64,000 nucleotides of DNA, taken from the NCBI GenBank assembly GCA_037349105.1, contig JAYJMM010000057.1:62001-126000 (forward strand), in the 5' to 3' direction. Of this stretch, positions 6,344-61,900 are shown in pieces. A program made the position numbers and the translations under genes. Source of the DNA: Limnomonas spitsbergensis. Lineage: Eukaryota; Chlorophyta; Chlorophyceae; Chlamydomonadales. Numbering within the stretch: the first letter of the stretch is position 1; the number at the start of each line of letters is the position of its first letter. The notes beneath the pieces are model-generated. The model saw only the letters and a list, made by a program, of their open reading frames with translations, ran no database searches and had not been told where the DNA came from.

Positions 6344-9300
6344 TCACATCAGCACTGCCGAGACGTCTAGCGCCGCCTCCAGTAGCCGCCGCCCCGCCGG
6401 CAGAGAGGCCTCCGGAGCATCATGCACCTTGCGCAAGGCCTCCTGAAAGGGAGAGACAAGAAGAATCCAGGGCACCATCATCAACAAAGCCAATATTCTG
6501 CGCCAGTGGCAGCTGCCACTCAGCCAGATATTTGCGCACTCGTAAAACACGCATGGCTAGAAATGTAGTTAGTTTGCGTAACTGCCAGTGCCTCATGCCA
6601 GCACTTACCTTTCCCCCATTGGTTATATACTGATATGCTGATATAGATGTCCAGCACCGGGACCTGGCCACAACATCGTACCTGCGCCCCCAAATCTTTG
6701 GCCAGGCTGCTCATTTCCAAGTCCGCATGACATAAGGTGCCCAACGCCACCAGCGCCCTGAATAGATGCAGCAAGAGCAGGACCATACATAATGTTACTG
6801 TGTCAACGTTACTTTGCTGGGTTATTGGGTTCCATACCTTAACCAAAGCCCGGTTGTTTGCCAATAGGAAGCCCAGTGGGGGCTCTAGTTTATTTCGTGT
6901 TGTATCCTAGTTCATGCAGTCATGAAACTGGATAATCGGCCCTTGTTCCATACATGAAACGAATTTAAAATTCACAGCGTCAACTCGTCAAGGCTTCTAC
7001 CCAACATGCTCGTCGAAAGCATCATGAATGTTTAGCAATTCCCAGACAGTCCTTGGGCATCATAAGGGGGACGGAACTCCTCACCTGAACACAGAGTCCC
7101 CATCGTCCATCGGAGCATTGTTCAGCAGCTCTATGAGGGCTGACAGCACCTGCATGAACAAGCAGCGCATCGTGGGATGTAATTCAAAGGATACCCCGCC
7201 TAGCGGCATGTCAGCCATTCCTCACCAGTCACCATACTCCAAGTTAGCATGGACAGGAAAGATTGAAAGAGGCCATACCGTGCACCATATGATGGACTGC
7301 TGGGTGGCTGTGCCATGTTCTGACGTAGCAGGTAATGGAACGATGGGATCATGCCGATCTGTTTCAATGACCTCCCCTCATGAGGATCCTGCTTGAATCC
7401 TGGGTCTGAGGACAGGTCCCGTAGATGGGACCGAAGTAACAGCTCAGAACCAGGAAGGCTACACTATTCATGGTACCGTTGTGGACATAGCCTCGGCCCG
7501 CACTGCATCTCCTTAATGTTCAAGCCTCTGCAAAACGTACCTTTCAATGTTTATTTTCCATACCCCTTGGACAGACATCCTCCCAGCAGAACTAACAAGT
7601 GTTGACTTCAGTTCACACAAACAACGTTTGGGGGGCCGCCGGGCGGCCACCTATGAGCTAATGGTGACCAAAAACACATTTACTGGCCTACGCCAAATGG
7701 CCCATGCAGCAAGGCTTGCTGCACCCTCAGGCCATAGGCTGTGACGCAGCTAAAATACAGCTGGGGTGCGTTCAACAAAACACAACGACGCTGACCTGCA
7801 GTTTCGTCTCAGACTGATCTCCGGCTGATGATAGCTTGCAGTGAACTGCGTAGTTGTACAGCAGCGTCGCCATGCTGACACGCACCCCCTGCAAGGGGGC
7901 AGTATACACTGTACATCTCAGAGCAACTGGGCAGTGGCCAGCTAGCCATTACTGAACTTCAGTCAAGACAGAATTTTAAGGAGGCAGAAGTTGGAATGGG
8001 GATGTCCTGAGTGGACCTGGACATTATGGGTCCATGAAGCAAGGGCCGGGTGGCCCACTATATTTTTGCCTGCTTCAGCTACATATGAGCTTAAGCTACA
8101 TATGAGCTTCAGCTACATATGAGCATGTTTGCCTGCTTCAGCTACATCACGGCCTAGGGCTGAGGGGGCCTTGTGCAGCAAGCCTCGATAGGCTGGCCAC
8201 CGGCCACCAGCCGGTCCTAATCAATCAGCCTAGTGGTGGCCGCCCAGCGGTCCCGAAGGCACCGAGAAACAAACCCTGTTGCCTTCACCCTGATGCCCCG
8301 CATCGACAACCCGACGCGCCTTATTTGTCGAGGTGCAGCAGCTGGAGAAGCTGTCCAGCAGCTGTGCCCTGCCCTGGACAACACAGGCCCGGGCGTGCTT
8401 GAAGCAGTTGCATGCCAGACGCAGGCCCAGCTGCTGGTTGGCTGCCACGGCCGGCTCCAAAGACGCGGCGGAGAGGCACGCCATCAGGGGGCCTGGGGGG
8501 ATCATCGCAGACATTATGGGTCAGGGACACAGCAACATAAGGGTCGATTTCCTCACAGCATCAATGCTTTCATCCAAACGCCTGTCACGAAAGGGTGATA
8601 AGGTGGTGCGGGCCAGAATAGCAGGGAAAGAGGCAAGTTTGAAAATTAGTAAATGACCAGCTCCAAACCAGAGAGCTATCTTAGGTACCTGAACCCTGAA
8701 CCATATACTGGCGAGGTCGACGCCCTTGCATCTTCATCCCGGGTCAATTTTGGCAGGGGAAGGCGCATTCTGAGCAGAAAAGGCAGGCGTTGCGTCCCCT
8801 TGCCCTCCTCCTAAATATCTCACAGCCAGCACTGGCCCAGGTCACAGTGCTACAGCGCTGAATGCGGTTATCCTGCTGCCCCTCACACCTGTCACACCCC
8901 ACACCTGTCACGAGCGCAGACGCCCCTCCAATGTCCAGCACAAACGCCCTGGCCACATCCAGAGCCGGGAAGAGCTGTGCCCTCGGCCACGCCAGCAGCT
9001 TAGCCAGCAGCGCCAGGTCAGCGGGCGTGAGCAAAGAGGCGGCGGCCAACTTCTTTATCATGTCCTCCAGGGGGCCTGCCAATGGATGCGAGGAGCTGAG
9101 GATGACATCATGTCTTGGTCAGGATGCAGAATACATCGCGTTCAGTAGGCATGCCTGAATCGCATGTAGACTTTAAATGCAATATATTCGATAAAGAAGC
9201 CCACATCCTGCGCCTGCGTATCAACATCTGTGTTTTATTCCAACATTCCTCGCCTGCTTGGTACCTGGATTGATCCGTTGCTTCGACAAGCCGGAACAAA

Positions 9301-12300
9301 CTGCTTGCACATCCCACCTGTCTCCTCCCCTTGAGCCAGGCCCAGCCCCTCCTGCTGCAACGCTGCATTGAATTCGCGGAGCTTGCGCAGCACTGCGTCC
9401 ACGTTGAGTGGGTTGTCGAAGGCGAGGTACACGCGGGCCGGCACATGGAGCAGCTGACCAGAGACGTAACCGCCTGCGCGCCAGAAAACAGGAGAAATGT
9501 AAGACGTTGTACCATCACCATCACCAGCATCGACACAAACACCAACAGTACAGTCAGGATATTTACCAGTCTTTAATGTTAGACTGAAGGGTTGAGGGTT
9601 TAGGCTTAAGCTCCAAGGTTATCTCAGGAATCTTTCAATTGGAACAGGTCAAAGGGTACCCAGTGGGAGCTGGATTGTGAAAGGCCAGGGTTGAGATCGG
9701 CTAAGGCCAGTTGGGACGTACCGTTTATTTGATTTGCCTTCCCTCGGGCATGAAAACATTTTTTTAATGCAGCCCCCGTGCAAACTGTGGACAAAACTCT
9801 TAATTTCAGAATAAAAACTGGCGTCGACAATTGATAGTTGGAAGAATTCATGAATCCCTCTACCCCAAACAACGTTAATTATGAGGGAAGGCAAAGCAAA
9901 TCTACGGTACACATACCGATAACATATCTAAACATTTCTGTCGGAGTAGAGCTCAGCGGCAGTGCTGCTTCTCACGCTTGCTCACATCTGACAGCCATTC
10001 AAGCATCCAACCGTACACGGTGTACAAGATGCATCCTAGGAAGGTGTCCAGCTGGCAAACGCATCAGCCGCAAGAGGAGCCCGCAAGGCAGCAAGATGAA
10101 CAAAACAGCGGTACAAGATTAAACAGCAGGCACTCATCCCCCTTTATCCTGCAGGCACCCAACTTTAACTAGTCCCTTTCTGTCTCCTCCGTCCCCCCTC
10201 CCTCAGCCCACCCGCTGCCGTCGCCCCCGACGCTCCCCCTCTGCCGCCCCCGCTGCCGCCGGTGAACGGATCGACGCCTCCACCTGTTGCCGAGAACGCC
10301 GCTGGGGCCTGGAAGCTTCCAGCCCCTGGCCCCGCCATGGGTCTGTCCCTGCTGCCGCTGCTGCCTGTGTACGGGTCGACACCGCCGCCCGTCACCGACA
10401 TGCCGCCAAAGTTGGGCGCTGGACCTGCCTCGGCAGTACGCTGAAGAACAAACTGGACGATCTGAATTCAAGGTAGGGTGGAGGTTCCAAGGATACCCGT
10501 CTGTAGGAGCCTCAACAGGTGCAATAGCATCCCCAGTAGCAACTAGCAACGGCAGGCTAGGTCGACCTTCCTTTTCTAGCTGGCATGCACATGACCGCAA
10601 ACTTCACAACAGAGGCATAGCAAGGCTGGTTAGGCCGTATCCTTGTTCCCCTCCCTTCCCCAAGTTTCCTTGGTTTTCCTTGGTTTGCACCATTGCCTTT
10701 TTTATGTTCTCTTCCTTATTGTTTTTTCGATGTCCTCCGATTCTGCACTGCGTGGCCCTTTTGAGAAGGGGTGCCGGTAATAGTTGGATAAGGAGGCGCT
10801 GCTGCAACACCACCCGTGAGTTCTACTTCATAGGGTCAGCGCAATGCCTAGATTAACATTAACACTATCATTTGTACAACGACTAACCACCTCCCTCAAT
10901 CCGCCACATCCATAATACTCCATCCACTTGGCAAGCAGCAGGAGTCCCCTGCCTCACCAACTCCCTGTCCCCTCTCACCTATAGCCGGTTTGTACCCCAG
11001 GGTAGCTACTGCAAGTGGTTCTCCTCCCCCTGATCACCTGCTCCCTGCCCCCCTCACCTATTCCCTGCACATACCTCAAGGTAACCCCTGCCTGTGTCCC
11101 CCCCTTGCTCACCTGCTCCCTGCACATACGGCAAGGTAACCCCTGCCTGTGTCTCCCCCTTCCTCACCTGCTCCCTGCACATACCTCAAGGTAACCCCTG
11201 CCTGTGTCTCCCCTTCCTCACCTGCTCCCTGCACATACCCTGGTGCTCCTGTATGTGTATCTCCCCCTTCCTCACCTGCTCCCTGTACATACCCTAGTGC
11301 TCCTGTATGTGTATCTCCCCCTCCCTCACCTGCTCCCTGTAGCCTGCTGGCAGGTCCTCTTGCAGCAGGAAGCGGTCGGCCACAATGTACGGGTTCTCTC
11401 CTCGGTTGCATGGTAGCTTGCGCGGAGGGGCGCCTGATCATGAACATCAGGGCCCAGGGGTAAGGCACTTGTTACTGTGCTAGTTACTGTGCTAGTAGCT
11501 GTGCTACTGCCAAAGTGTACACTCAAAAGTTTGTGTGAGTGGGCCAGACAGGTTGGGGCACAGGAAGAGGACTTGCAACAACTGAAGAAAGCTGGAATGA
11601 TCCCCTGACGGGAATTGCAGGCCGTGATAAAAGACCTTGCAAAGGCGATAGCCTTAATTGAGGGTCCAGGGTATCGCAATGCTGCTCGATATCTTCTCAA
11701 TGTGGTGCAAATTTGTTCTTAAAGTTTGCAGGTCTGAGTGGCACACAGCCGACGGTGACAATGACCCAAAACCTTTTCCATATAAAACCCGGAAGCCTGA
11801 ACATGAACAGTAACCCCCTCTCCTCCGCATCTACATCAAACGTGGAGTCCATATGCCTCCCATCATGCAGCTTCTGATCCACCTTCCTCCACATCATCTT
11901 TCAACCCTCAACCTGATCCACCTTCCTCCACATCATCTTTCAAACCTCAACCTGATCCACCTTCCTCCACATCATCTTTCAAACCTCAACCCTCAACCTG
12001 ATCCACCTTCCTCCACATCATCTTTCAAACCTCAACCCTCAACCTGATCCACCTTCCTCCACATCATCTTTCAACCCTTAACCCTCAACCTGATCCACCT
12101 TCCTCCACATTATCTTTCAACCCTAAACCCTCAACCATCAACCCTCCACCTGACCCACCTTCCTCTGTGTCCACATCAAACACGAAGTCCCAATGTTCCC
12201 CATTATGCAGCTTCTGGGCACCGCCGCCGATCTCTCCCCCCTGAGGCGCCGCCACCACCTCCCCAATCATGTCCCATTTGAACTCCTGCCAAAAAGTGGA

Positions 12301-12531
12301 AATATGTTTGCAATGCGGTAAGAGGTTTGGAATGGCTGTTGCATGCAACATGGGGCAGATTACTTGAATTTGAAGAATCGAGGGGCATGCCGCCATGCCT
12401 CCTCGACAGCATGAAGGCAGGGCGTGCATCTTCACATAGCATGGAGACTGGGTATGACCCTCCCCCCAGCATACATGCTGGGTTCCCCCCCGACAACACT
12501 CACTCACACCTTGCAGACTGCCCCCCCCCTC

Positions 12532-12573
<42 letters not shown>

Positions 12574-15500
12574 ACAAAGGCCATCCCCCTCCATACACAC
12601 ACACACACAACATGAAGCCCCCCCCCATGAGGGCTGCTCCCCCCCCCCTTCCTCACCTTCGCATCCCAGGCATACGCATTTATTCCGCCATTTGCCTCCT
12701 TGACCACCTTGGTTTCACCATCCTTGGCGCCCGGCTGGATCAATGTGTGGGCCTCAACCACCTGGCGTTCACGCGCAAGAAACCATGGCTGGATTCAGGA
12801 TCCGGTCAAAACCAGGATATCATACACGGGGAAGAAGGCATCGCCTAGGGGAGGACTGAAATTCAATCTTTTGGGTGGATGATTCAACTAGCGGTATGTA
12901 CCATTCTCCCCTTCAGCATCTACTACAGTATTTGTGATGGTGCAGGATCAATGGATCAATGGACCAACAGCAGCAACAGCAGCAGTAGAATCAGCAGCAG
13001 TGGCAGCAGTTTATTTTCTGCCTGTTGAGTGCCCCCCAAAGCTGCCCTGCTCCTCCTCCTGTTTTGCCCCCGTACCTTTACCGCCAGGTGAAAGGTCCGC
13101 CCCCCCTCCCACTCTGCCCCCATACCTTTGAGTCTTCGACCCAAGGTGACAGCCCACTCCCGCTCCCGCACCCGCACATTCACTGCCAAGAGGCAGACCC
13201 GCTCCGCCTTCCCCCCGCTCCCCCCCCGCACCTTCACCCCGGGAGGTAGCCCTGTTGCCGCTCCGCCCCCGCTCTCCTCCTCCGTCTTCTGCGCCGCCGC
13301 CGCCCTCCGCTCATCCAGGAGACCCTGCAGGCTAGCAGCCACCTCCCCATCCGCCTGCCAGCAAGAGGGGGGGGGGAGGATGATAGGGCGGGGACGCGGA
13401 GTTCAGAGCCTGGGAAAAGTTGAGGCCGGGCTTAGGCCTACAATCTTGAAATCTGGGGACAGGGTCTGAAAAGCCGGACATAAGGTGGGTAAGAGCCGGG
13501 TTACGGTACCAACGGCAGTGCACACACAAAAAGACTTGTTTACAGCTGCGTGAAAAAATGCGGCACTGTCTATCCAGCATGCTCATCGCCCTCTTGAGCT
13601 GCATTCCAGACACATCCCTTACTGCCTAGCAAAGCAAGACCTGTTGCTCGGGTCGCCATTTTGTCCCAATCAGCCCATGGGTGGCCTCCCAGCCGACTCA
13701 AAGGCGGCCAAGTGCACACTTCGATAGCCATGTCAACAGAGCCCAGCTCCGATGTTTACGCCGTGGTGGGGGCCATGGTGTTAAAGCGCACCTTGCGGTC
13801 CTGGTCTGTCGTCCATAGCCTGGCCACTGCGTCTGAGCAGCCAGTTAACAGGTCCCCAGCAGCCGTGAAGCTCAGATCCCACACACAGCCGGGGTGATCT
13901 ATAACCTGCAAGAATGGAAACATGAGAGGGGAAGAAATTGCCGGGTAAGACTCATTTTATTCAGGGAAGAAACATGATGTGGAAGTGAACTAAAGTGGGT
14001 CCCCAGCAGTTGTGAAGCACAAATGGCACACACAGCCGGGCTGATCTATAACCTGCGTAAAACACACAAACCATGGAGACACATTGGGGCCAAGTTAGAC
14101 TGAAGCAAGGGAGGCCCCCCGCACCAATGAAGCACATCTTCTACCCACACACAGCCGGGGTGATCAATCCCCCCCCCCCCCCCCCCCCCCCACACACATG
14201 ATTTCGTAAAAAAACAACCCAGAAATTGTTAGCGCTCCATTACATGTACGGATGTGCCTGATTACAAGAAATTTACAGGTTAACTCAAAGCAGGCATTTA
14301 ATGACATGGGCACACAAGAGTTTCACAGCTTACAGATATACGTCACTGCACATCGTCGTCGTTTATTTGCCTCTGCTTCCTACCTGCAGGCACTCGCCAG
14401 AAGGGCGCCAGATCCTGGCTGTGCCATCCTCACTCCCTGAATAGCAGGGGAAGCATGGATGAGATCAGTAACATAAGAGATAACAATACAATGTACCGGT
14501 AGTCAGATCCTGGCTGCACCATCATGGCCTGTTTCACTGCACTGTATGCCAGGATACCAGCAAAAACAGAACAGGCAAACATTTGAGACACTAACCAGAC
14601 AGGTAACGGTGTTAATATGTGTAGAGACTTCTGGAGCTTGAAGGGTCCCAAAGTGGGGCCCCATCTTTTACGCCCTGCTACAGTGGTAAACATTACAAAA
14701 AACAAAAATGGCTACAGAACTCGGTCGACTTGAAATCAGTGGGAAATAGAGCCCGCACCCTGCATGGAACAGACTGGGTCCTTCGCAGGCAGCAGCATCA
14801 CTCCTGCCCGTGTGCTGAACAGGAGACGCACTTCTAGTGACATGTCTCCGTGCGCTCAAAACCCTTAACCCGTACCTAACACCATCAAGCTCTCTTCTCA
14901 GCCGGCACGTTTGGTAGTATCACGGGGGTCGTATCATTGCCTGCTAAGCAGGATGTAATGAGTCCTCAACCCTCAATCCCTGATAAAGTACCTGAGGCCA
15001 CCAGACTCTTCTCAGCCAGCACCTTGACAGCGTATATGATTGCCGTGTGGCCCAGGAGCTCAGCCAGTGCGTTGCCCTGTCGAAGGGGGTGGGGGGGGGC
15101 GGTTCAGGGTTTGTAGGTGAAGAGTTTGTGGGGCTTGGGTTGAGGAGGTAGCCTGCTGGTCCTGGTGACATTGCTGTGTGGCCTAGGAGCTCAGCCAGTG
15201 TGTTTCCCTGTCAGGTGGGCGTGTGTGATAGCGTAAGGATGCGCGGAACGTAGTTGAAGTTCAGTCTCCTTTGAGCATCACCATATCTCTGGGTAGTGGC
15301 TTTAAAGATAGGTGGTATACACAAGGGTTTGGGGCAAAGAGTTGGGAGCTTCAGAGTCTAGCAAGTAGCCTGTAAGCCTTGGTGACATTTTCAACACAGC
15401 TCCAGAGGTCCGACACGTGTCCTTATAGAGACCAATACAAACTGGTTGCCATTTCAAAACACTCATCACACAGACCAACAACACTGGGCGGGTCATACAC

Positions 15501-18500
15501 TCTTATTCACACCATAATCTTACATTTGAATCTACCGATGTGCGGTATCATGGACTATGATAGATTTATATAGGCGAACAGCCCTAAGAGGTCGCATGGC
15601 TGGGGTTTGACGGTGATGGGAGACGGTGATGGGGGACAGTGATGGGGGACAGTGATGGGGGACAGTGATGGGGGACGGTGATGGGGGACGGTGATGGGGG
15701 ACAGTGATGGGGGACGGTGATGGGGGACAGTGATGGGGGACGGTGATGGGGGACGGTGATGGGGGACGGTGATGGGGGACAGTGAAGGGGGACGGTGATG
15801 GGGGACGGTGATGGGGGACGGTGATGGGGGACAGTGATGGGGGACGGTGATGGGGGACGGTGAAGGGGTCAGTGAAGGGGGACGGTGATGGGGGACGGTG
15901 ATGGGGGACGGTGATGGGGGACAGTGATGGGGGAAGGTGATGGGGGACGGTGATGGGGGACGGTGATGGGGGACGGTGATGGGGGACGGTGATGGGGGAC
16001 GGTGATGGGGGACAGTGATGGGGGACAGTGATGAGGGACGGTGATGGGGGACAGTGATGGGGGACAGTGATGGGGGACAGTGATGGGGGACGGTGATGGG
16101 GGACGATGATGGGGGACGGTGATGGGGGACGGTGATGGGGGACAGTGATGGGGGACGGTGATGGGGGACGGTGATGGGGGACGGTGATGGGGGACAGTGA
16201 AGGGGGACGGTGATGGGGGACGGTGATGGGGGACGGTGATGGGGGACAGTGATGGGGGACGGTGATGGGGGACGGTGAAGGGGTCAGTGAAGGGGGACGG
16301 TGATGGGGGACGGTGATGGGGGACGGTGATGGGGGACAGTGATGGGGGACGGTGATGGGGGACGGTGATGGGGGACGGTGATGGGGGACGGTGATGGGGG
16401 ACGGTGATGGGGGACGGTGATGGGGGACAGTGATGGGGGACGGTGATGGGGGACGGTGATGGGGGACAGTGATGGGGGACAGTGATGGGGGACAGTGATG
16501 GGGGACAGTGATGGGGGACGGTGATGGGGGACGGTGATGAGGGACGGTGATGGGGGACGGTGATGGGGGACGGTGAAGGGGTCAATGAAGGGGTCAGTGA
16601 AGGGGGACGGTGATGGGGGACGGTGATGGAGGACAGTGATGGGGGACGGTGAAGGGGACAGTGAAGGGGGACGGTGATGGGGGACGGTGATGCGGGACGG
16701 TGAAGGGGGACGGTGAAGGGGGACGGTGATGGGGGACGGTGATGGGGGACAGTGAAGGGCGACGGTGATGGGGGACGGTGATGGGGGACGGTGATGGGGG
16801 ACGGTGATGGGGGACGGTGATGGGGGACGGTGATGGGGGACGGTGATGGGGGACAGTGATGGGGGACAGTAAAGGGGGACGGTGATGGAGGACAGTGATG
16901 GAGGACAGTGATGGGGGACGGTGAAGGGGTCAGTGAAGGGGGACGGTGATGGGGGAAGGTGATGGGGGACGGTAAAAGGGGACAGTGAAGGGGGACGGTG
17001 ATGGGGGACGTGTCTAGCTGTCCATCCATGCCCCCTCACCTGCATGGTGATGGTTGACGCATTTAGCTGTCCATCCATGCCCCCTCATCTGCATGGTGAT
17101 GGTTGACGCATTTAGCTGTCCATCTGGGCCCCCTCACCTGCATGGTGATGGTTGACACATTAAGCTGTCCATCCATGCCCCCTCACATGCACGGTGATGG
17201 TTGACGCATTTAGCTGTCCATCCATGCCCCCTCACCTGCATGGTGATGGTTGACGCATTTAGCTGTCCATCCATGCCCCCTCACCTGCATGGTGATGGTT
17301 GACGCATTAAGCTGTCCATCCATGCCCCCTCACCTGCATGGTGATGGTTGACGCATTTAGCTGTCCATCCATGCCCCCTCACCTGCATGGTGATGGTTGA
17401 CGCATTTAGCTGTCCATCCATGCCCCCTCACCTGCATGGTGATGGTTGACGCATTAAGCTGTCCATCCATGCCCCCTCACCTGCATGGTGATGGTTGACG
17501 CATTTAGCTGTCCATCCATGCCCCCTCACCTGCATGGTGATGGTTGACGCATTTAGCTGTCCATCCATGCCCCCTCACCTGCATGGTGATGGTTGACGCA
17601 TTAAGCTGTCCATCCATGCCCCCTCACCTGCATGGTGATGGTTGACGCATTTAGCTGTCCATCCATGCCCCCTCATCTGCATGGTGATGGTTGACGCATT
17701 TAGCTGTCCATCCATGCCCCCTCACCTGCATGGTGATGGTTGACGCATTTAGCTGTCCATCCATGCCCCCTCACCTGCATGATGATGGTGGACGCATTAA
17801 GCTGTCCATCCATGCCCCCTCACCTGCATGGTGATGGTTGACGCATTTAGCTGTCCATCCATGCCCCCTCACCTGCATGGTGATGGTTGACGCATTAAGC
17901 TGTCCATCCATGCCCCCTCACCTGCATGGTGATGGTTGACGCATTTAGCTGTCCATCCATGCCCCCTCACCTGCATGGTGATGGTTGACGCATTTAGCTG
18001 TCCATCCATGCCCCCTCACCTGCATGGTGATGGTTGACGCATTAAGCTGTCCATCCATGCCCCCTCACATGCATGGTGATGGTTGACGCATTTAGCTGTC
18101 CATCCATGCCCCCTCACCTGCATGGTGATGGTTGACGCATTTAGCTGTCCATCCATGCCCCCTCACCTGCATGGTGATGGTTGACGCATTAAGCTGTCCA
18201 TACATGCCCCCTCACCTGCATGGTGATGGTTGACGCATTTAGCTGTCCATCCATGCCCCCTCACCTGCATGGTGATGGTTGACGCATTTAGCTGTCCATC
18301 CATGCCCCCTCACCTGCATGGTGATGGTTGACACATTAAGCTGTCCATCCATGCCCCCTCACCTGCATGGTGATGGTTGACGCATTAAGCTGTCCATTCA
18401 TGCCCCCTCACATGCATGGTGATGGTTGACGCATTTAGCTGTCCATCCATGCCCCCTCACCTGCATGATGATGGTTGACGCATTTAGCTGTCCATCCATG

Positions 18501-44499: not shown

Positions 44500-44820
44500 T
44501 GGAAAACTCCCAAAACTCCACACCCCTTCCACACTTCCAGAATTTTCTTAGGGCCTCCCGAAACTCCTCCGACTCCACCGACTCCCCCAACTGTGCCCCC
44601 TCCCAGAATTTTCTTAAGGCCTCCCGAAACTCCCCCGACTCCTCCGACTCCCCCAACTATGGCAAATCCCCCAACTATGCCCCCTCACAGAATTTTCTCA
44701 GGGCCTCCCGAAACTCCTCCGACTCCTCCGACTCCCCCAACTATGGCAACTCCCCCAACTATACCCCCTTCCCAGAATTTTCTTAGGGCCTCCCGAAACT
44801 CCTCCGACTCCCCCAACTAT
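44500..44820 (+). repeat. ~80-120-bp tandem repeat, four partial units
   Basis: Units share CCAGAATTTTCTTAGGGCCT, CCCGAAACTCCTCCGACTCC and CCCAACTATG. All are open in one frame (QNFLRASRNSSDS), but this looks like a by-product of the period; no family is recognised. Confidence 0.88.
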
Positions 44821-44923
44821 GGCCGAGCATTGATGCACATGGCGCCAGAGGGCAGCGGGGATATAGGCTCAGTCAAGGGGGGATGCCGCGTTGTGGGAGA
44901 TAAAGGTGTGTATGCTGTATCTG

Positions 44924-45800: not shown

Positions 45801-46356
45801 ACACATAGGGCACTGGGGCGTAGATTTAGGAAGGGTTTGGGCTTCAAGGTTTTAGGAACAGGGGCGTAGATTTTGGATGACGGTGCCAGCGTATTGAGGT
45901 GCATGGCACAGAGGTCCTTATGTAATCACGAACGCCGTCAGAGGAGCGTATGCCGCAAATCTTGCGCAAATCTTGTCAGAGGTGTTGGCGGCAGCTGTAT
46001 TGTGTGATTTTTGTCACATCCTACCCCATTTGGTATTTGTACAGGTGTGCTCAGCACTCCACCTTCGTTTTAATGATTACTTCAGCCACTGCTCAGGGAC
46101 ACGACACGGGGGCCCGACCGACAGCGCCACATTTTCTGCGCTGACAATTGTTTATGCATGCTTGGCATGTATCACGCACATCTCGCATTCTTGTAAGCAT
46201 TGCTTTTGCGGCTGGTCGAATCGTGTTCTTTCTATGTCGCCATCGACTCGCACCTCCTGCGCCCGGCGGTACCGGTGGATCAGATATGCTTGGCAGGTTA
46301 CTCTTCTGGTCACACGCGATCTGGTCCGTTTGCTTGCCTGCTCGCAAAAAATAAAG

Positions 46357-46384
46357 TCACGCACGCACGCACGCACGCACGCAG
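46357..46384 (+). repeat. (CGCA)n microsatellite
   Basis: About seven perfect CGCA/ACGC tetramers. Confidence 0.9.
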
Positions 46385-46576
46385 ATTTTCCAGGCCGGTT
46401 ATTAAAACTCTCTATCCACGTCTAATAGACGCATTTGTCTTCCGCCCTTCCTATTATTAAATACAAAATGAGCTCGATACCTTTTAGACGTATATACGTC
46501 ACGTCAAGGGGCGGGGTTCGGCAGGACGCACAGTTTCACCTATACCCTTCGGAGGCCGGTTATTATTCACCTATAC

Positions 46577-46668
46577 ACTTCGAAACATAAAGGTTCCTCC
46601 GGGGACCCTTCGGAACCTAAAGGTTTCTCAGGGGATACCCTTCGGAACCTAAAGTTTCCTCCGGGGAC
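46577..46668 (+). repeat. 32-bp tandem repeat upstream of the kinase gene
   Basis: Three units contain TTCGGAACCTAAAGGTTTCT and CAGGGGATACCC. They lie 255-345 bp before the kinase start codon, so they could be in its promoter or 5' UTR. Confidence 0.85.
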
Positions 46669-46922
46669 TATGTGGACGTGGTGCATACATCCTCACACCT
46701 GACAACCCACCCGGGCCACCCCCACTATTCCACCACCACGCCTCAGCTGCTTCTGCTCAGCTTATCCTCTTCTTTGACTACCTCCTCGCTCAAAGCTTCA
46801 ATTGAGATAGCAAATGCTCTCTGAGCCAGAGCCGTATTCATCAAGTCAAGTTTCGGCGTTTCCCCTCTTTCTTTCTCAGACCACCTGCTCCTGCTGGCCC
46901 AACTAAGTCGCGTGATGACGTG

Positions 46923-49900: not shown

Positions 49901-52900
49901 GAATGGCTGGTACATGGCGAGATTTGGGTGGGCCTCTGGCAGCGTGAATTTGAATTCAAATTAGATCTCCTTGAGACAGCCGCTGGGTGCCACTCTTTGG
50001 TCTGGCCTGCAGTCCCCCATGGCTTTAGGAGTCGCTTTAGCTCAATTCTAGATGAGCGCCCCAAATGATGCGGTGGCTTGTGTGTGACCCTTTCAGCATA
50101 TGCCAGTGGCCAGCAGAGGTGCCCCCCCGACCTGTTGCGCATGGGATGGGATGTTGCAAAAACAGGAGGTGTGCATTGTGTCCCCAGTCACCCCAGTCAT
50201 AGAGAGAAAGAAATCAGCCCTGCTGGGGCGTGAGGGTTCAGGAAACATGGCGGCATGAACTGAGGCTGCGTCCATGCCGTCATCATAACCGCAACCATGT
50301 AGGAGTTTTGGGGGTATGAGCTGCGGGGAGGGTCCAGGAAGCCGAATCTAGCCATCCGCATCTGGAAGCTGAATCCAGCCTTCCGCACCTGAAGGACTGA
50401 GATCACCTGTGCTTGTATTTCCCCCATGCAGGGCATCAGCAGCCTCGCCAAGGAGACGGTACGGTTGGAGCTCAGCCAGGACAGCCACACGGGCGCAACA
50501 ATACTCAACCAGTGAGAAGTCATGTCCGCTTGCTTTGGCTGACGGGTAAAGCCGCGGAACAATACTGTCCAGGTGCTATCCCTCTGCCCAGGTTTACCTC
50601 CCTCCGGAATTGTTTGTTGTCATGTTTTCTTCGCTGGTACTGCATGTAAAGGCCTGTGATGTGCGTGTGTTAAGGGTGTGCGGGGGGAGTCCTGTTTATC
50701 ACAACCTTCATCTAGAGGGATACTACCTGCCCCCCACCTTACCTGCCCTCAAAGTAGCCATTGTTGGGTGCTGCTTACTGCAAGCAGGCATGGTGCTGCT
50801 TTGTTTGCTGTGTTCTAACATTTAAGCTGTCGCCGCCTGTTGTATGTGCAGGTATGTGATTGTCAAGACACTAGGTCGAGGCAGCTTTGGCAAGGTCAAG
50901 CTCTGCCTGAACACATTGGACGGACGTCTGTACGCAATCAAGGTAACACCGACCTGCTGTTCCTATCTAGTTAGTCAATACCGGTACTATGTGAAGATTT
51001 CTTCAAGAGGTTTGTTTTGATCTCTGAGGGGTGCAGATGTTGGTGGAGATGCACCGACTGCTGTCCAAGTTCCAATATCTGGATATGTTCAGTACATTGA
51101 GCACCTGGACTTGCATCAGACCTCTGACACAAACAACTTCGGTTAGCAAGGTAGGGTACAAAACAGCCAAACTGCCAAACCCTATGTTCCCTCATAGCCC
51201 TATACATGGTAGCCCTGTACATGGTAGCCTCAACCAGGGCCATTCAAGGGCGTATATGTTTATATATGCCTCTTTCCTGCTTTGAATGTGCTTTGATTCA
51301 CCTCCCTGCTGTTGCTCGCACCCTTTCCAGATGGTGAATCGATCCTTTGTGATGAAGCAGCTGCAGCAGCGGCCCGCACGCACATTGCGTCGGCGCCTAC
51401 CTCCGCGAAACATCTCGGCCAGCAACCTCGGGGGTGTGAGAACGTTGACGCAACTTAAGGAGGTCGCGTCAACAGACAGCTTGAAAGGATGCAGGTGAAA
51501 GGGGTGTCTGCATTTATTTTTAGTGTGTGCCAGGCCACCATTGGGGCCTGCTGGGACACCTCTAATGGGCTGATTGGGACCATATCTTGACTGGCCTGCA
51601 GCTAGTGTCCCGGGCGACAGGGTTTGCGAAACGAAGATCATGCGGCTGCTGGCCAGGGTGGGGTTTAAGAGTGGCTGAGGGAGCACCCCAGAATAATCGC
51701 TGAAGCTAGTAATGCATGGGTTCGGGGTCCATGGCCCAAGGTTCCACCTCAAAATCTATGTGAAAGTTAATATCGATGACACAAATCACATGATTGTGGG
51801 ATCTAGAGGAACATGGTGGAAGACTAAACTGTGGGTGCATGCGTCAAGATTCTGTGACTTGTCCTCCCATGTTCAAAATTTGGATCGATGGGGCTTCATA
51901 TTACCCTTGCTCCCACAGTGTAGACATATGTGGCATACGCTAAAAGGCGTAATTACAGTGCTTACTGGTAAAAGTAGCTGAATTTGAAATTACGGTGCCT
52001 GAAACTCAGCTACGTAAGCCAGCCGCCGTAGGGACAGTAATCGGCACAGCTCCCCATATGACAGTGCAAGGTGGTGCTGGCCTTGGTTGTGTCAGCCATG
52101 GTCATGCTGCCCCCACCTGCCCCCACCAGCCATGGTGCCCTAGTCATGTTGCCCCCACCTGCGCCAGTCATGCTGCCCTCACCTGCCCCCACCAGTCATA
52201 GTGCTGGCCTTGGTTGTGTCAGCCATGGTCATGTTGCCCCCACCTGCCCCCACCAGCCATGGTGCCCTAGTCATGTTGCCCCCACCTGCGCCAGTCATGC
52301 TGCCCTCACCTGCCCCCACCAGTCATAGTGCTGGCCTTGGTTGTGTCAGCCATGGTCATGCTGCCCCCACCTACCTTCAGGCTAGACAGCTCTCTAGGCT
52401 CACTGAAAACCCAGGGGCTGCATTGCATCCGGCCACCCCTCCAACTGAGTTATGTCCTTGCCATGCAACCTGTGCCCTCATGACCCCTATCCTTGGTAAT
52501 CCTGCACTTGTGTTTGGGCATCCGACCAGCTACCCCCTCCATTTTTTTCATTTCTTCAAAGCTACCCCCACCCCTTTTTTCATTTCATCCTCCCTACCCC
52601 CCAAACACGCGCCGGCCCCCCTTGCCCCCATGATCCCATCAGGGTGGACTGCTATCGAGGCTGAAGCGGGACACCCAGCACCTCCTCTGCACCGCCCTGG
52701 AGCGCTACACCAGCCTGTCCGACCTGCCTGACACCTTGGGGGTCGAAGGGGGCGGGCGGCTCAACAATTTATAATGCTGTTGACTCCCTGACTGAAAAGC
52801 TTTGTCGTTTTGGGTATTAAATCCGGCCACCTGATCCCTGATAGCTTTTGTCCAACACCTTGAGTGTACTCTTTTGCCCACAGAGACAGTGACAACGGAC

Positions 52901-55900
52901 CGGCCAACTACAGCATTAGCTTTGGCATCTTCAACAGGTGGGGTGGAGGGTGGGGTGGAGTATGCTCATGAGGGAGGAAATCAGGGGTCTACAATGGGGT
53001 CTGGGAACTGACCGGTTTCGCCGGGCACTTCAAGGTGCCGTCTGCCTGAGGGAAGATCGTCAGCGAGACGAGAGAGGCGGCTGTTTCGGCTGGGGCTGTT
53101 TCGGTGAGGTCGATCTCAACCTCGACTTCGCGACGTGGCTCCTCGACTTCGAGACGTGGCTCCTTCGCTTTGTCTAACGACCACATGTCGAAGCTGAAGG
53201 CTTTGCTACCGATCTGCCGCTTTCTAGAACCACTAGACATAATGGCTAGCTGAGAATATGTTAAAGGGAATAAAACTGGAACAACCGGGGAGAAAAAGAG
53301 CCGGATAAGAGTTTGTGGGCCTCCGGCCCCAAATCACCACAGCCGGAGAACATTCATACTCCCCCCTTTTTTTTCCGGCTTCGCCGGAACCCCCTCTCGC
53401 TTTTCCCCGGCTTTTTTTTCTTTTGTCCAATTCTGCCCGGGAACCGGCCGGTTTGTAGAGCCCTGGAGGAAATGAGGAACTACTCTGGCGGTGTATGGGA
53501 TGCCTCCCGCTACCTCGCGTAGCGCCTGTGCCTTTTGACCTGAACTAACCCGCGGATCCTCTTACCTCTCAAAAGCCGCTGCCATTTGTTTTGGAATTAT
53601 GATGACGGCACCAGTTTTATGATTGCGATTTGCTCTTTCCCTGGAGGTGTCAAATCAAGCAAGAAGTACCGTAAACCGTCTTTGACTCCGCTCGAAATTA
53701 AATAATTATAGGGGTGCGCGGACATGGTGCGCGATAATATTAATTCAAAAAAGTCCGCTGCGCGGAGCGTCAGTCAGGTGCCCAAACATCTGTTTTGGGG
53801 GTGCGCGGTATGAATTAAAAACAGCAGCTTTTACAAAAATCGTGCGCTAGCGCGCGACTGTTTGATTCGACATCCGTTTAGTCATATTTGTCAAGTCTGC
53901 TCAAATAGCCATGCACAGCAACACAAAGACGAAGTGCCAGACGTTTTCCCTGCTTACGCCTTGAGAGTGGTAAATGAACATTGACAGGATCCGAACCGCA
54001 GACCTCAGGTTGGACTGCCAAACTGCTTTGTACCACTGAGCCCCCCACGTTTATATAACCACACGTTTCCTGAGGCCAGAAACCGGCGGGGGAGGAGGAT
54101 GACGATTACGGGATCGTTGCTAGCAGGGGGGTGCTAGCATCACCCTAAGTTTTAACTGTGCTTTACGGTACTGGCTGACAGTGCTGCGCGGACGGAAATT
54201 TAAATTATTTCACTGATGCGCGATGTGTAATTAAATTCTGTGCTGCGCGGCGTTAAATTAAATTAAAATTTCGTCGCTGCGCGACCGTTTTTAAAATTCT
54301 TTTTGGGGTGCGCGGCCGAAAAATAAATTCTTTTTTTGGGGGGTGCGCGAAGTCTAAGGCGTTTTACGGTATCTGTAGTGTTCAGGAATCAGGATTGAAG
54401 GTCCTTTTAAGACTTCACCATCATGGAAATCAGTCATTCATCAGCACATGCTATGTGTTGAGCACATGGGTGGTTCTGTCTGCATTCTGTGCTTCCCGCA
54501 GGCCACAGGATATGGTTGAGCAACCACTTTCTCAGGATAGGTTGAGCACTTCTGGGGGGAGCAAGCCACTTTTATCCCTGTTTGATCAAGTCCTGAATTT
54601 TTGAAACTTAACCACTGGCGAAATCTCTGGTGTCTCATGTCTCTCCTCAAACGCACCACTCCACTGGCGTATCTGTGTCGCTGACCAGTGTTTATCTTAG
54701 TGTACCAAATCAATACGGGGTGCCGCCAGGCGGTCATTACTGGGCCGATTGGGACCAAACCTTGAGCAGCCTACAACCAGAGGCCCTAGGAGTAAGGCTT
54801 GCTGCGACCGGCCCCCACGGCTGTAGGCCGTGATGTAGCTGAATTGCAGCTGAAGCACGCTAAAAACATCAGTGTCGCTGACATGTCTCTCCTGCTCATT
54901 CCCCCTCTCACCGCTTAGACCAGGGGGGATCAACTCCAGGCTGTCCCTAGACGAGGCTAGCAGGCGGCGGGACTCGGTGGACGAGTATGTGGCGGCAAGC
55001 AACCCACTGGAAGGTGGGTGAATGTGTGGGTGTGCGCGTGTTTGTGCGTGTGCGTGCACGTGTGTGTAGGAGTGCTTGTGTGTGCGTGTATGTTTTGTGC
55101 AGATTATTGAAAGTCATACGTCTATGGATGGATTCATGTTGTGCATTTAACTGAAAGATGAACAAAATGATTGCAAGATGGAAGGTGTGTATATGCTGTG
55201 AGTTTCTGTGTGTGTGCTTGTATGCAGCCTTTACTTGAACACCAGAAATTCAGATGGTGAGGGAGGAGTCATGACATGTTACAATCTGCCTATGCCTTTA
55301 AGGTTGAGTGCGGTGTGGGTGGGTGGAGTGGTGGGTGGGTGGAGTGGAGAGGGTGGGTGGGTGGAGTGGGGGGAGCATTGTTGGTGTGATGGCAACAGGA
55401 TGTGCTGTACCGGTAAGGGATTTAGTCCCAACCCCAGTTTGAAGACCGGCTTCGCTAGCCCCACATGGATCCAGGATTCTTCATGTGATTCACCATCAGA
55501 GTTGAGTGAGAGCTTGTACACACGTACCTGACATGTTCTGCCACTCACATGTGTGTCGCATCCACTGATGTTGCGCAGAGGTCATGCGGGAGGTAGCTGT
55601 GCTGAAAAAGCTAGACCACCCCAACATCGTCCGATTGCACGAGGTGGGGGCGGGAGGTGTTGGAATAGTTTTGTCAACAGCCAACAGGCTGTTGATGTAG
55701 TTGGGGGCGGGAGGTGGTGGCGGGAGTCATTTCTTGTTGGAATGTCAACAGCCAACAAGCTGTTGATGTAGTTGTGCACACATAGGTACTGATCGAAGGA
55801 GCCCAGGATGTGGGGACAAGCAAAAAGTAGGAATATTAGGACAAGCCAAAAGGAGTGTTAGGAATATTTGGAATATAAGGAAGGAATATTAGGACAAGCA

Positions 55901-58900
55901 AAATTGAGGAATATTGAAGTGTAGGAAGTCAAGAGTTCAGCAGTCTTAAGCCCCTGGTTTTCAGCATCTCAGGATTTGCGAGGTCACCTCATGGTAGCAT
56001 CAGGAGGGCATTGTGTTCATCCTAGTACTCAACTACCCATTCAATACGGTACTGTACTGATGGGCAGGTGTGTTGCCTAACGGCCATTGAGAGGGAGGAC
56101 AGGGACAATAACTTGCTTTGTTTGAATTTAATTTGTATTGAGCCCTGTTGCATCAGCCCTGTTGCATCAGCCCTGTTGCATCAGCCCTGTTGCATCAGCC
56201 CTGTTGCATCAGCCCTGTTGCATCAGCCCTGTTGCATCAGCCCTGTTGCATCAGCCCTGTTGCATCAGCCCTGTTGCATCAGCCCTGTTGCACCAGCCCT
56301 GTTGCATCAGCCCTGTTGCATCAGCCCTGTTTGCTCCCTTTTCTCAACTGCGCTCTCAGCCCCCCCCCGGTGGCAGTCAGCTGATGTTTGAACTCGATTT
56401 TGTTTTCTTAACATTTTAAATTAGGCCTGTCTGCCCCCTCTTCGCCTGCTGCACTCTCAGATCATTAACCCCCCCTGGTGGCAGTCATCTAATGTTTGGA
56501 TTTAAATTTTATTTTGATTATTTTGAATCAGGCCTGCCTGCCCCCTCTTCGCCCGCTGCATTCTCAGATCATCGACCCCCCTGGTGGCAGTCATCTTATG
56601 TTGGTCATGGAATACATGGAGCATGGCCCGGTTCAATCAACACGCATGCAGGGCGGTGGCTTCAACAGGTGAAGGCTGGGCTGGGCTGGACAGGGCTGAG
56701 CTGGGTTGGGATGGGATGGACAGGGCTGGGCTGGACTGGACACGGCTGAGCTGGGATGGGATGGGATGGACAGGGATGGGATGGGATGGGATGGGATGGA
56801 CTGGACTGGACTGGACTGGACTGGACTGGACTGGACACGGCTAAGCTGGGATGGGATGGGGTGGGATGGATCGGGCTGGGCTGGGCTGGGCTGGGCTGGG
56901 CTGGGCTGGGCTGGGCTGGACTGGACTGGACACGGCTGAGCTGGGATGGGATGGGATGGGGGCGGGGGTGGGGGTGGGGGTGGGGGTGGGGGCAGAGATG
57001 GGGGCAGGGGTGGGGGCAGGGATGGGGGATGGGGATGGGGCAGGGATGGGATGGACAGGGCTGGGCAGAGCTGGGCTGGACAGGGATGGGGGATGGGGAT
57101 GGGGCAGGGATGGGGGCAGGGATGGGATGGACAGGGCTGGGCAGAGCTGGGCTGGACAGGGCTGAGCTGGGATGGGATGGGATGGGCTAGGCTGGACAGG
57201 GCTGGGCTGGGCTAGGCTGGACAGGGCTGGGCTAGGCTGGGCTGGACAGGGCTGGGCTAGGCTGGGCTGGACAGGGCTGGGCTAGGCTGGACAGGGCTGG
57301 GCTGGGCTGGACAGGGCTGGGCTAGGCTGGGCTGGGCTGGACAGGGCTGGGCTGGGCTGGGCTGGGCTGGGCTGGGCTGGGCTGGGCTGGGCTGGGCTGG
57401 GCTGGGCTGGACAGGGCTGGGCTGGGCTGGACAGGGCTGGGCTGGGCTGGGCTGGACAGGGCTGGGCTGGGCTGGGCTGGGCTGGACAGGGCTGGGCTGG
57501 GCTGGACAGGGCTGGGCTGGGCTGGGCTGGACAGGGCTGGGCTGGGCTGGACTGGGCTGGGCTGGACAGGGCTGGGCTGGGCTGGACAGGGCTGGGCTGG
57601 ACAGGGCTGGGCTGGGCTGGACAGGGCTAGGCTGGGCTGGGCTGGGCTGGGCTGGGCTGGGCTGGGCTAGGCTGGGCTGGACAGGGCTGGGCTGGGCTGG
57701 GCTGGACAGGGCTGGGCTGGGCTGGGCTGGACTAGGCTAGGCTGGGCTGGGCTGGGCTAGGCTAGGCTAGGCTGGACAGGGCTGGGCTAGGCTGGACAGG
57801 GCTGGACAGGGCTGGGCTGGGCTGGGCTGGGCTGGGCTGGGCTGGACTAGGCTAGGCTAGGCTGGGCTGGGCTGGGCTAGGCTGGGCTGGGCTGGGCTAG
57901 GCTAGGCTGGGCTGGGCTGGGCTAGGCTAGGCTAGGCTAGGCTAGGCTAGGCTGGGCTGGGCTGGGCTGGGCTGGGCTAGGCTAGGCTAGGCTAGGCTAG
58001 GCTAGGCTGGGCTGGGCTGGGCTGGGCTAGGCTAGGCTAGGCTAGGCTAGGCTAGGCTAGGCTAGGCTGGCTGCTTTTCTTCTGAGGATGCAAGGTTGAG
58101 GGAGAGGGGACCCTGCCAACTGCTTCAGATGGGTTTGATTTATGAAATCAAGAGGCATCCTCAAGCTAACATAATTTCCTAGCATGCATCCGAATGATTC
58201 AATCCTGCAGGGAGTTGGATGCCCTCAGAGGGCAGCCGGCCAACAGCTAATTTTGTTTGTAGCTCACAAGACTTGAAAATAAGTAAATAATATGTGCGGC
58301 CTCTGTCAAGCCCCCCATCATGTCCAGCCCCTGATTGAGCCTGTCACGATGACGTGCGTGTCTCAGGTTTATGGAGGATGTCTGTCTGCGGTACTTCCGA
58401 CAAGCATGCTGTGGGCTTGACTACCTGCACTTCAACGGTGCGTGGCCACCTCCTACTTGCCGCCAACCCTGGTCCCGCCTCACACGCATATGCGTATGCT
58501 GCCACAGAGCCTCCAGGGTGTGGTAGGGAGCGCCTCCCCCGGTGCTCATTGCCCTTCATCATGACCCTGCCCCACTCGCACAAGAACATGCCCTGCACCC
58601 CTCCTTTTGTATGTTTGTGTACTACATCCGGGACCTGACGGATCAGATACTTTATAGGGTGGGCCTAGGATGGGCGGGTTGTGTGCGGAACAGCAGCTGG
58701 ATGTTGAGGGCAGGCCCTAGGGCTTGATAAGCCACCAGACGCTATAGGATGTTTGGAGGAGCGAGGATCCGGAAGACCTGAACGCATCGAAAGTGTGAAG
58801 CCTGTGCGTTGCGATCAAGAACCGGGACGAGATGCGGGACTGAAATCCCAACATGCTGCTAGCTTGCGTCTAGCTCCGTCTGTCAGTTGCCGGGGTGCTG

Positions 58901-61900
58901 AGTCATGCTCAGCTCTTTCTGTGTTCCTGCAGGGGTGCGCACTTGTGCCCCCCACAGTTTGGCGCCCACGCAGCGGAGCCTTTTTGAGCGGGGACCAGAG
59001 GTGTTATGTCATTGAGTTGTGCCCCCCTTGCTCTTGCCTGTCGGTGTAGGTGTGGTTCATGGGGACCTCAAGCCTGAGAACATGTTGGTGAATGCCGTGG
59101 GGGACCTGAAGCTAGCGGACTTCGGATCGGCACGGTGCGTTGAACAGTGGCATGATAGATTAACTCTGCGTTGTACAGTGTGGCATGATCCATCAACTCT
59201 GCGTTGAACAGTGTGGCATAATCCATCAACTCTGTGTTGTCTATGTCCTGGGTGTCTGGCCATGATGGACAAGACACAGGGCAACATTTTTTTAGTTGGC
59301 AGGCTTTGATTCGTGAGGTGCATCAGGTCTCATATTTCAGTGCCCTGAGCCCATCCTTGCCTGCCCTGCTCTCCCTCACCTTTCGTCTCCCCCACTCACC
59401 CTTCCCTGCCCTCTTGCCCTCATTCTCCGCTTACTCGCGGTCAATGTCCCTCACTCTTCCCCACTCTCTCTCTCTTACCGGTCACTCTATGTTCACTTGT
59501 CCCTCACTCTTTCCCACTCTCCCTCACACCACCAGAGTTATCAACGATAACAGCAGCAACAGCAAGCTGTCCTGTACGCCTGCATTCCAGCCGCCTGAGG
59601 CTGTCAATGGCGGCACCATGACGTCCCCAGGGACCTTGGTGGTCAAGGTGCCGCCCGACCCGTACTCCGCAGACGTGTGGGCGCTAGGCGTCTGCCTGTA
59701 CTGCTTTGTGTATGGGCGGATGCCTTTCCAGGGGAGCTGCTCGCTGGATGTCAGCAGAGCTATCTTGCATGTGGAGGTCAGTGGGCAGCATAGAGAGGGG
59801 AGGGGGACGGGTTTGTTGGGAAGCTGTTGAAGGTGCGCGGGAAGCTGTTGGAAGTGCGTGGGAAGCTGTTGGAGGTGCGTGGGAAGCTTTTGAATAGGGG
59901 GGGAGGCAGAGGCATTTCATATGGAGAGAGTGAGGAGGGGGCAGGCTGATGTAAGTTTGCAGCTTTTGGAGGTGTGATGTACCAGGTGACAAAAAAAAGC
60001 GTTTTGTCTCTGGTTTTGTTTCTGTTCTGCCGCACTCTGTGGCTTAAGGCCTGTAGTGGGTGTAGTGGGTGTTGGTTGGTGCCCATAATACCCACAGCAT
60101 AGCCATGTTGCGCTCGCGTATACCCCGCTGCTGGACTCCAGTAGCTTGAGGCCTGTATGTATTGTTGGGTAAGCAGAGCATCCTTGTATGCGCAATACCA
60201 TTATATTCTGTGTTGCCCAGTTGTCCTGATGCTTTCTGGTGCTGAAGGCGTGTGTATGTTGGTGTGTATGCAGGTGTCATACCCGCCAGAGGTGCGCGTG
60301 TCGCGGGAGATCCTGCACCTCTTCTCTCAGGTCTTCATAAAGGACCCCACTGAGCGCATCACGCTGCAGGTAATGGTGTGGGAAGGAGGGCAGTGGAAAG
60401 GGATAGAGAGCCAGATACGCGTGCACATTCAAATATGCATGCACATTCAAATATGCGTGCACATTCAAATATGCGTGCACATTCAAATACACATGCACAT
60501 TCAAGGACCCCACTGAGCGCATCGCATTACGGGTAACTGCGCGAGCTGACAATGGAAACGGAATGGGGGGCAGTGGCTAGGGGGATTAAGCGCCAAAAAC
60601 ATGGTTGAAATGGTTGTTTGGAGTTACCTCTGTTACATTCGTATCCTGGCTTTCCTGCAGCTGGTCCCTCTCCTCCCACCCCCCCTCTCATTCTTCTCAC
60701 ACCTTTCCCCTACCGTTCTACCCTCCATTTTATTCCATGCCTCTTTTCCTTCCCCTTCCCTATTATTCTCACACTTCTCTCCTCTCACCCCCCCCCCCCC
60801 CCTATCTTTCTCTGTTCTCACTCATTTATCCAGGGCATTATGTCGCATCCTTGGACGACAAACAGGGGGCGCTCACCTCTTTTATCACTCCCTCTCTTAC
60901 TAATTCCCCCCACGTTTGTTATCCAGGGCATGATGTCGCATCCTTGGACCACTAACCGAGGCCACTCACCTCTACAGACCCTGTGCCAACTGCACATGCC
61001 GCAAAAGGCACCCACTGTAAGTCATCTCAAGGGCCAGGGCTTTCTGCAATGCACTTAAACTGTATGGGTTTACAAATACCAATGGCATCTGCCTCATATC
61101 TGTAATCCTGTATCGGACTGCATTACTGATAGTTTTAAGAGGGCAAGCATAGAGGGCAAGCAAGCATTGGATGTAAGGGCGTTGTCATCTTCAGGTTGCT
61201 ACGGCAAAGTTCAGGGATGGGGCCCTATCTGTAAATGTGTTGCTGCCCAGCAGCCAGCCGACAGTGGTCTAGAACGCACTTCTGATGAATCAACATTAAC
61301 CTGTATGAGGGCAACCTGTATGAGGGCAACCTGTATGAGGGCAACCTGTATGAGGGCAACCTGTATGAGGGCAACCTGTATGAGGGCAACCTGTATGAGG
61401 GCAACCTGTATGAGGGCAACCTGTATGAGGGCAACCTGTATGAGGGCAACCTGTATGAGGGCAACCTGTATGAGGGCAACCTGTATGAGGGCAACCTGTA
61501 TGAGGGCAACCTGTATGAGGGCAACCTGTATGAGGGCAACCTGTATGAAGGCAACCTGTATGAGGGCAACCTGTATGAGGGCAACCTGTATGAGGGCAAC
61601 CTGTATGAAGGCAACCTGTATGAGGGCAACCTGTATGAGGGCAACCTGTATGAGGGCAACCTGTATGAGGGCAACCTGTATGAAGGCAACCTGTATGAGG
61701 GCAACCTGTATGAGGGCAACCTGTATGAGGGCAACCTGTATGAGGGCAACCTGTATGAGGGCAACCTGTATGAGGGCAACCTGTATGAGGGCAACCTGTA
61801 TGAGGGCAACCTGTATGAGGGCAACCTGTATGAGGGCAACCTGTATGAGGGCAACCTGTATGAGGGCAACCTGTATGAGGGCAACCTGTATGAGGGCAAC

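Follow-up and report, generated by a model that had tools for sequence, protein, structure and literature searches.

The stretch examined here is a 64-kb window of the green alga Limnomonas spitsbergensis (GenBank assembly GCA_037349105.1, contig JAYJMM010000057.1, positions 62,001 to 126,000), whose PLAA protein has its closest named relative in Chlamydomonas eustigma. We modelled five genes in it, with 60 introns. These introns harbor tandem arrays and local duplicates, some of which repeat the end of the neighboring exon together with its splice site. An initial annotation, made from the letters alone, had read the intronic repeats as copies of the adjacent splice junction, and had suggested either that junctions are hot spots for duplication or that arrays survive only where each unit remains spliceable. 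We consider it probable that the junction copies mostly reflect random local duplication followed by the purging of harmful copies, with the growing arrays fenced by splice signals. All results come from this one window, and the sample numbers are small. The genes are as follows.

6344..25881, minus strand: PLAA gene (WD40-PFU-PUL), 21 exons, a complete frame without internal stop; 65% identity over 100% to the C. eustigma protein
26186..39419, plus strand: SBP-box transcription factor with an ankyrin-type region, 14 exons; SBP domain E 5e-31
46923..64000, plus strand: CaMKK/GRIK-like kinase with a cyclic-nucleotide-binding domain, 18 exons, extending past the window end
43945-40102, minus strand: C2-domain gene, between the SBP-box gene and the kinase
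4684-1463, minus strand: tyrosine phosphatase (PTP), partial, at the window start

The gene models were built by eye from reading frames, splice dinucleotides and protein relatives, with translation as a check. Against C. eustigma 18 of the 20 PLAA junctions align without gaps (with three other relatives the counts are 18, 18 and 14), as do 12 of 17 kinase junctions (14/17 and 12/17 against two others); in the SBP-box gene 11 of 13 are gap-free against a metagenome relative (10/13 and 9/13 against two others). Because most junctions align in this way, the exon ends lie mostly where the initial annotation had placed them. In the models the donor of PLAA exon 14 is uncertain, as is one C2 acceptor. 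Our kinase exon numbers are two below the earlier ones, so that the former exons 15, 17, 13 and 18 are, judged by position, exons 13, 15, 11 and 16 here.

Sixteen junctions had been named as copied, and fifteen of them hold: the donors of PLAA exons 5, 6, 12, 13 and 16, SBP exons 4 and 5 and kinase exon 15, and the acceptors of PLAA exons 7 and 9, SBP exons 5, 8 (69% identity) and 9 (34552) and kinase exons 11 and 16. The sixteenth, the donor of kinase exon 13 (59136), drops out since the array merely abuts it. Further cases came to light at PLAA donors 7 and 10, PLAA acceptor 8, SBP acceptor 3, SBP donor 6, kinase donor 11 and, weakly, PTP donor 3. The largest array had been put at about 190 copies, close to the 184.1 reported by Tandem Repeats Finder (TRF). 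In PLAA the features are these.

19640..23680, minus strand: 20-bp array of 184 copies, starting 8 nt inside the end of exon 5 and filling most of intron 5; the unit carries GGCAG|GTACG
16997..19446, minus strand: 49-bp array of 50 copies, starting 6 nt inside the end of exon 6; the unit carries ATGCAG|GTGAGG
11052..11339, minus strand: 54-bp array of 5.3 copies, starting 10 nt inside the end of exon 13
11813..12216, minus strand: 46-bp array at the exon 12 donor; in addition, the final 58 nt of the exon recur 340 nt downstream as a decayed copy that is 75% identical and has lost the donor
8872..8911, minus strand: 16-bp duplicate of the exon 16 donor with about 7 exon bases, found by the automatic locus list alone
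13095..13245, minus strand: exon 10 end and donor repeated, 74% identity
14892..15025, minus strand: exon 7 end, decayed copy in intron 7, offset 114
15039..15212, minus strand: exon 7 start and acceptor, copy 131 nt upstream, 85%; it would shift the frame
14409..14574, minus strand: exon 8 start, copy at offset 95
13850..14182, minus strand: exon 9 start, duplicated 147 nt upstream with 88% identity, the acceptor AG preserved and 2 stops; inspection by eye shows one more copy, decayed

At its far end the 49-bp array adjoins a 13-bp array (15609-17010), and since both hold CCATCACC, one may derive from the other. The SBP-box gene carries the following.

29621..29865, plus strand: 100-bp array starting 8 nt inside the end of exon 4; the unit carries GGGCTCAG|GTACAG and telomere-like CCCTAAA
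30743..30973, plus strand: exon 5 end (58 exon nt), copy with donor 125 nt downstream, 76%
30425..30613, plus strand: exon 5 start, copy with acceptor 129 nt upstream, 91%, one stop
29008..29180, plus strand: exon 3 start, decayed copy about 120 nt upstream with the acceptor AG lost; classed as intronic in the automatic locus list
33103..33699, plus strand: exon 8 start, copy 266 nt upstream, 69%
34465..34557, plus strand: 49-bp unit in 1.9 copies, ending 6 nt inside exon 9 (site 34552)
31749..31812, plus strand: G-rich short repeats from the exon 6 donor, seen in the local-copy scan, the array edges and the alignment

Telomere-like CCCTAAA units lie within SBP-box intronic arrays at 29631-29929 and 31097-31258. 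The coding part of this gene has minisatellites as well, in exon 2 (27810-28032 and 28135-28238), with 51/63-bp and 24-bp units that are multiples of three and glutamine-rich. The remaining junction features belong to the kinase and PTP.

56361..56602, plus strand: 107-bp unit in 2.3 copies, which takes in the kinase exon 11 acceptor with 35 nt of the exon
56646..58070, plus strand: GGCTG-type array from the kinase exon 11 donor, found by TRF and the local-copy scan
59136..59239, plus strand: 33-bp array that begins at base 2 of the intron following kinase exon 13, with zero exon bases repeated
60340..60536, plus strand: last 30 nt of kinase exon 15 with the donor, copy 163 nt downstream, 85%, with an 18-bp array in between
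60826..60973, plus strand: kinase exon 16 start, copy 93 nt upstream, acceptor intact, in frame, no stop
3112..3241, minus strand: PTP exon 3 donor, weak duplicate at offset 102 with the lowest score used

The stretch 60834-60926 holds a second acceptor for kinase exon 16, the use of which could yield an isoform longer by 31 residues. The gapped alignment of exon-edge copies comprises 22 rows, six of which are without identity figures: PLAA donors 7 and 16, PLAA acceptor 8 and PTP donor 3 were self-matches, and PLAA donor 5 and kinase donor 11 matched distant array units. Old two-copy duplications take in 24 to 58 exon bases at 69-91% identity (e.g., the SBP exon 5 end, the kinase exon 16 start and the PLAA exon 9 start). 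In the multi-copy arrays at PLAA donors 5, 6 and 13, SBP donor 4 and SBP acceptor 9, the exon share is 6-10 bases by TRF and 6-23 by gapped alignment, and kinase acceptor 11 with its 35 exon bases is intermediate between the two groups.

The local copies are not the product of chance, because matches with a score of at least 14 number 6219 in the local scan (offsets up to 1200 bp) and 11 at a 21-kb offset. Outside the TRF arrays 77 copies are direct and 19 inverted (separate arms), an imbalance that tandem duplication predicts; with the arrays included, inverted local matches come to 353 overall. TRF finds 59 arrays with a period of at least 9, distributed over 31 of the 60 introns and built of units of about 9-110 bp placed head to tail.

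Most of this material lies away from junctions: 20 of the 69 non-exonic duplication loci in genes are junction-related and 49 make no junction contact, and 53 of the 59 TRF arrays are likewise off-junction, so that the repeats cannot generally be described as junction copies. The six arrays that do span a junction compare with 3.7 expected under random unit placement in array-collapsed introns (P 0.14), or with 8.3 if a two-unit footprint is used. Only 18 of 119 junctions fall inside a local copy, compared with 39.5% of cuts made in intron interiors and 10.5% of those in exon interiors (one of the 120 junctions, the C2 exon 5 acceptor, has no AG and was left out of this test). By gene, with intron-interior coverage in brackets, the copied junctions are 1/8 in PTP (5.7%), 0/11 in C2 (2.9%), 8/40 in PLAA (59%), 6/26 in SBP (25%) and 3/34 in the kinase (36%).

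Per-base array coverage is dominated by the arrays of 2.5 and 4 kb, and locus counts and a sliding profile were therefore added. In the 30-mer tests, which use all 60 introns with the C2 exon 5 acceptor included, a 30-mer was counted as copied if its match within its own intron beat those in 100 stretches taken from other introns. For starts at -60, -30, -15, 0, 15, 30, 60, 90 and 120, the copied share is 9, 12, 22, 18, 24, 34, 31, 26 and 29% on the donor side and 5, 12, 12, 8, 19, 19, 16, 19 and 20% on the acceptor side. The corresponding counts at -60, -30, -15 (centred on the junction), +30 and +120 are 5/56, 7/60, 13/60, 20/58 and 16/56 for donors and 3/58, 7/60, 7/60, 11/58 and 11/56 for acceptors. 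Across the 60 introns the profile thus has no peak at the junction; the rate climbs from exon to intron. Exon ends are copied well above expectation, as 16 of 120 exon-end 30-mers, eight at donors and eight at acceptors, have a copy in their own intron versus about 1.2 expected and 2 of 50 among exon-middle controls. Taken with the TRF spans, which do not differ significantly from random placement, these rates do not bear out a general junction hot spot.

A narrower version of the claim does stand: array edges concentrate at donors. Among the 59 arrays, eight have their donor-facing edge in -10..+1 versus 1.5 expected, and none has it deeper in the exon (-60..-11) versus 1.9 expected. The -10..+1 interval was picked after seeing the data, and the correction was made by scanning the range -40 to +250 on either side in 12-nt windows. 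The scan-corrected P is 0.002, and with other TRF settings it is 0.0055, 0.0065 and 0.0005, which makes four of five settings significant; at the loosest setting the pile-up is absent (6 versus 2.3, P 0.024 in the chosen interval and a scan P of 0.69). Four of the eight donor edges lie at -1..+1 and include one exon base or none. Acceptor edges in -10..+1 number 2 versus 1.5 expected, with a weak shoulder at +5..+46 (9 versus 4.6, P 0.03; P 0.12 for periods of at least 13). Arrays in the window are accordingly concentrated toward intron ends, clearly on the donor side and weakly on the acceptor side. The donor pile-up is the one feature that random duplication and loss leave unexplained.

How could random duplication produce this picture? 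Local tandem duplication is frequent in the introns of this alga, and its products range from single extra copies, offset by about 10-300 bp, to arrays of dozens of copies and up to about 184. Duplications would strike introns and exon edges equally, and those within exons would be purged unless they preserve the frame. Periods divisible by three are found in 6 of 7 exonic arrays, 24 of 60 intronic arrays and 1 of 6 junction arrays, and the bias among the exonic ones is a mark of selection. Duplications spanning a junction may survive because one complete exon with its splice site remains and the rest is spliced out. When a tandem copy overlaps an exon end and its sister lies in the intron, the junction is necessarily part of it; copies of the adjacent junction are therefore a matter of geometry. 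Pairs with a copy in the exon would, in addition, be recognizable for longer because the exon copy is under selection. Growing arrays would be fenced by the splice signals, reaching the last bases of the exon on the donor side and tending to halt before the exon on the acceptor side, a step that we proposed post hoc.

Several results weigh against this explanation. Junction loci are in excess of random placement, with 19/64 versus 10.0 expected for periods 9-300 (P 0.001) and 18/60 versus 8.2 for periods 9-200 (P 0.0003); among the TRF arrays the excess is not significant. The excess shrinks to 19 versus 15.8 (P 0.19) if junction-spanning pairs are detectable twice as long, which is expected because one copy is constrained exon; a full match needs a survival weight of 2.5-3, where a value of about 2 is arguable and is itself assumed. 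The list used in this test was typed from the automatic loci with one period altered by hand (the PLAA exon 5 locus, 244 to 20); left at 244, the expectation is 10.4 and P is 0.002. One of the 20 junction-related loci, the mostly exonic SBP donor 10 at offset 1124, is probably not genuine, and some of the entries lump more than one event together. A hand-curated event list (20/61 versus 9.2 expected, P 0.0001) was not taken as the main result because junction cases had been added to it by eye and intronic ones had not. Random placement also does not predict the donor pile-up, which is why the fencing step is required, and a fence predicts a pile-up at acceptors too, where the signal is weak. 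Finally, the exon overlap of 6-10 nt that TRF assigns to four donor arrays is about the size of the splice consensus and fits seeding by the donor motif too.

Donor seeding is the alternative that fares best. On this view the donor motif CAG|GTRAGG provides a short stretch of homology that is always present, and slippage or unequal exchange with a downstream donor-like motif would make the first duplicate; arrays would therefore start at the donor and their units would carry it. This agrees with the edge pile-up, significant in four of five settings, and with the short exon overlap of the four complex donor arrays. However, the pile-up vanishes at the loosest setting, half of the eight donor edges include hardly any exon sequence, and the numbers are those of a single window. 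Moreover, the 53 off-junction arrays show no sense bias for the motif (6 sense, 10 antisense), and introns outside arrays hold 64 sense and 66 antisense donor-like motifs; the overall sense excess in introns of 279 to 90 arises because the donor arrays themselves supply it. We regard donor seeding as unlikely.

A broader form of the idea is that the 5' splice site itself is the origin of intronic minisatellites in this lineage, with arrays that nucleate at the donor, because a fixed consensus offers a never-decaying homology for slippage or unequal exchange, and that grow into the intron, whose length would be set in part by donor strength or repeat-likeness. This is speculative, and we think it doubtful. 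If the donor pile-up is true genome-wide, a splicing signal would be tied to DNA instability, which would help to explain how kilobases of repeats are gained without gene breakage. If it is not general, the window is still a clear illustration of the way in which random duplications come to look targeted through selection and geometry.

The proposal that junctions are true mutational hot spots, through R-loops, nicks or transcription-replication conflict at donors, has its strongest evidence in the locus-count excess. The donor side of introns also has somewhat more copies, as in the +30 counts of 20/58 versus 11/58. The absence of a junction peak in the 30-mer profile speaks against it, as does the lower copy rate of junctions relative to intron interiors, and exon-edge copies are split evenly between donors and acceptors. 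We consider true hot spots improbable.

Functional redundancy, in which copies are kept as alternative splice sites and arrays are selected for splicing control, is very improbable. Some acceptor copies are intact, and the kinase exon 16 copy (60834) is open over 93 nt and the sole examined upstream acceptor copy that is both in frame and open, adding 31 residues. However, among the seven examined of nine known upstream acceptor copies, the frame is lost in four and a stop is introduced by five. Translations of five donor copies, one of them (SBP donor 4) misplaced, do not enter into these counts. The C. eustigma relative is without the 31 residues of kinase exon 16 (junction 15 being gap-free) and has no inserted residues at 18 of 20 PLAA junctions. 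Nor are donor cores in array units specially conserved: exact CAGGT cores number 40 in 49 parsed units of the 49-bp array, where the last exonic G is among the more variable columns (0.86), and 153 in 173 parsed units of the 20-bp array. The suggestion that each unit must still be spliceable thus finds no backing here.

The birth of introns by tandem genomic duplication of AGGT-bearing exon segments is extremely unlikely as the source, for although the units contain AG|GT and the review PMC3443670 gives in vivo support for the process, that model makes the donor and acceptor of one intron mutual copies, whereas the copies observed pair a junction with mid-intron sequence, and none of the 20 junction-related loci bridges both ends of an intron (offsets up to 1200 bp, score at least 14).

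Other features of the window touch the gene models. The open stretch at 52644-52770 in kinase intron 7 looks coding and has no in-frame join to its neighbors, and may be a cassette or a decayed exon; an extra kinase exon there was discarded since it breaks the frame, and exon 7 joined straight to 52884 keeps it. Two introns are probably of the GC-AG kind, at 8320 (PLAA exon 17, AAG|GCGCGT) and 26417 (SBP exon 1, AGG|GCAAGT). Protein names suggest that the PLAA-SBP neighborhood (6344-39419) is common to volvocine algae (Vafri_19894/Vafri_19898; PLESTB_001066500/PLESTB_001066100). Long similar stretches with GCGC-rich motifs, seen by eye, lie in opposite orientation in kinase introns at 53690-53880 and 63470-63660 and perhaps belong to a mobile element, and copies of the interspersed motif GGCCGTGATGTAGCTGAA lie near 8140, 42785 and 54830. 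An Rfam scan of the window gave 0 matches at the gathering threshold, and a tRNA scan gave 0.

In the literature no description of donor-anchored arrays or exon-edge duplications was found by title or abstract start, which is weak evidence of absence. The potato RdRp gene (PMC4974935) is reportedly a case of intron gain by tandem genomic duplication. The closest parallel to the arrays is a survey of 31 plants and algae (PMC3887541, G3 2013), in which, according to the sections consulted, tandem-repeat density in C. reinhardtii and V. carteri is highest in introns and repeat frequency is significantly raised close to intron-exon junctions, with a U-shaped profile. The likeness to the window lies in intronic repeats that are denser toward intron ends, and tandem repeats near green-algal intron ends are thus already published; the survey bins repeats by tenths of the intron, and its sections consulted contain neither exon-base content nor a single-base donor edge. 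Internal tandem repeats (minisatellites) that modify gene structure in human paralogues (PMC2812944) resemble the window, by title and headings, as in-gene minisatellites altering gene structure, but they are set in primate segmental duplications. PMC3443670 reviews how new introns arise when segments bearing AGGT are duplicated in tandem, and with this review and the algal survey in print, the view that no process with this signature had been described was too strong. As far as the consulted parts of that review go, it shares with the window local tandem duplication of a unit containing AG|GT, a duplication that is tolerated since splicing takes it out; the difference is that in the window introns already present acquire copies of one of their ends.

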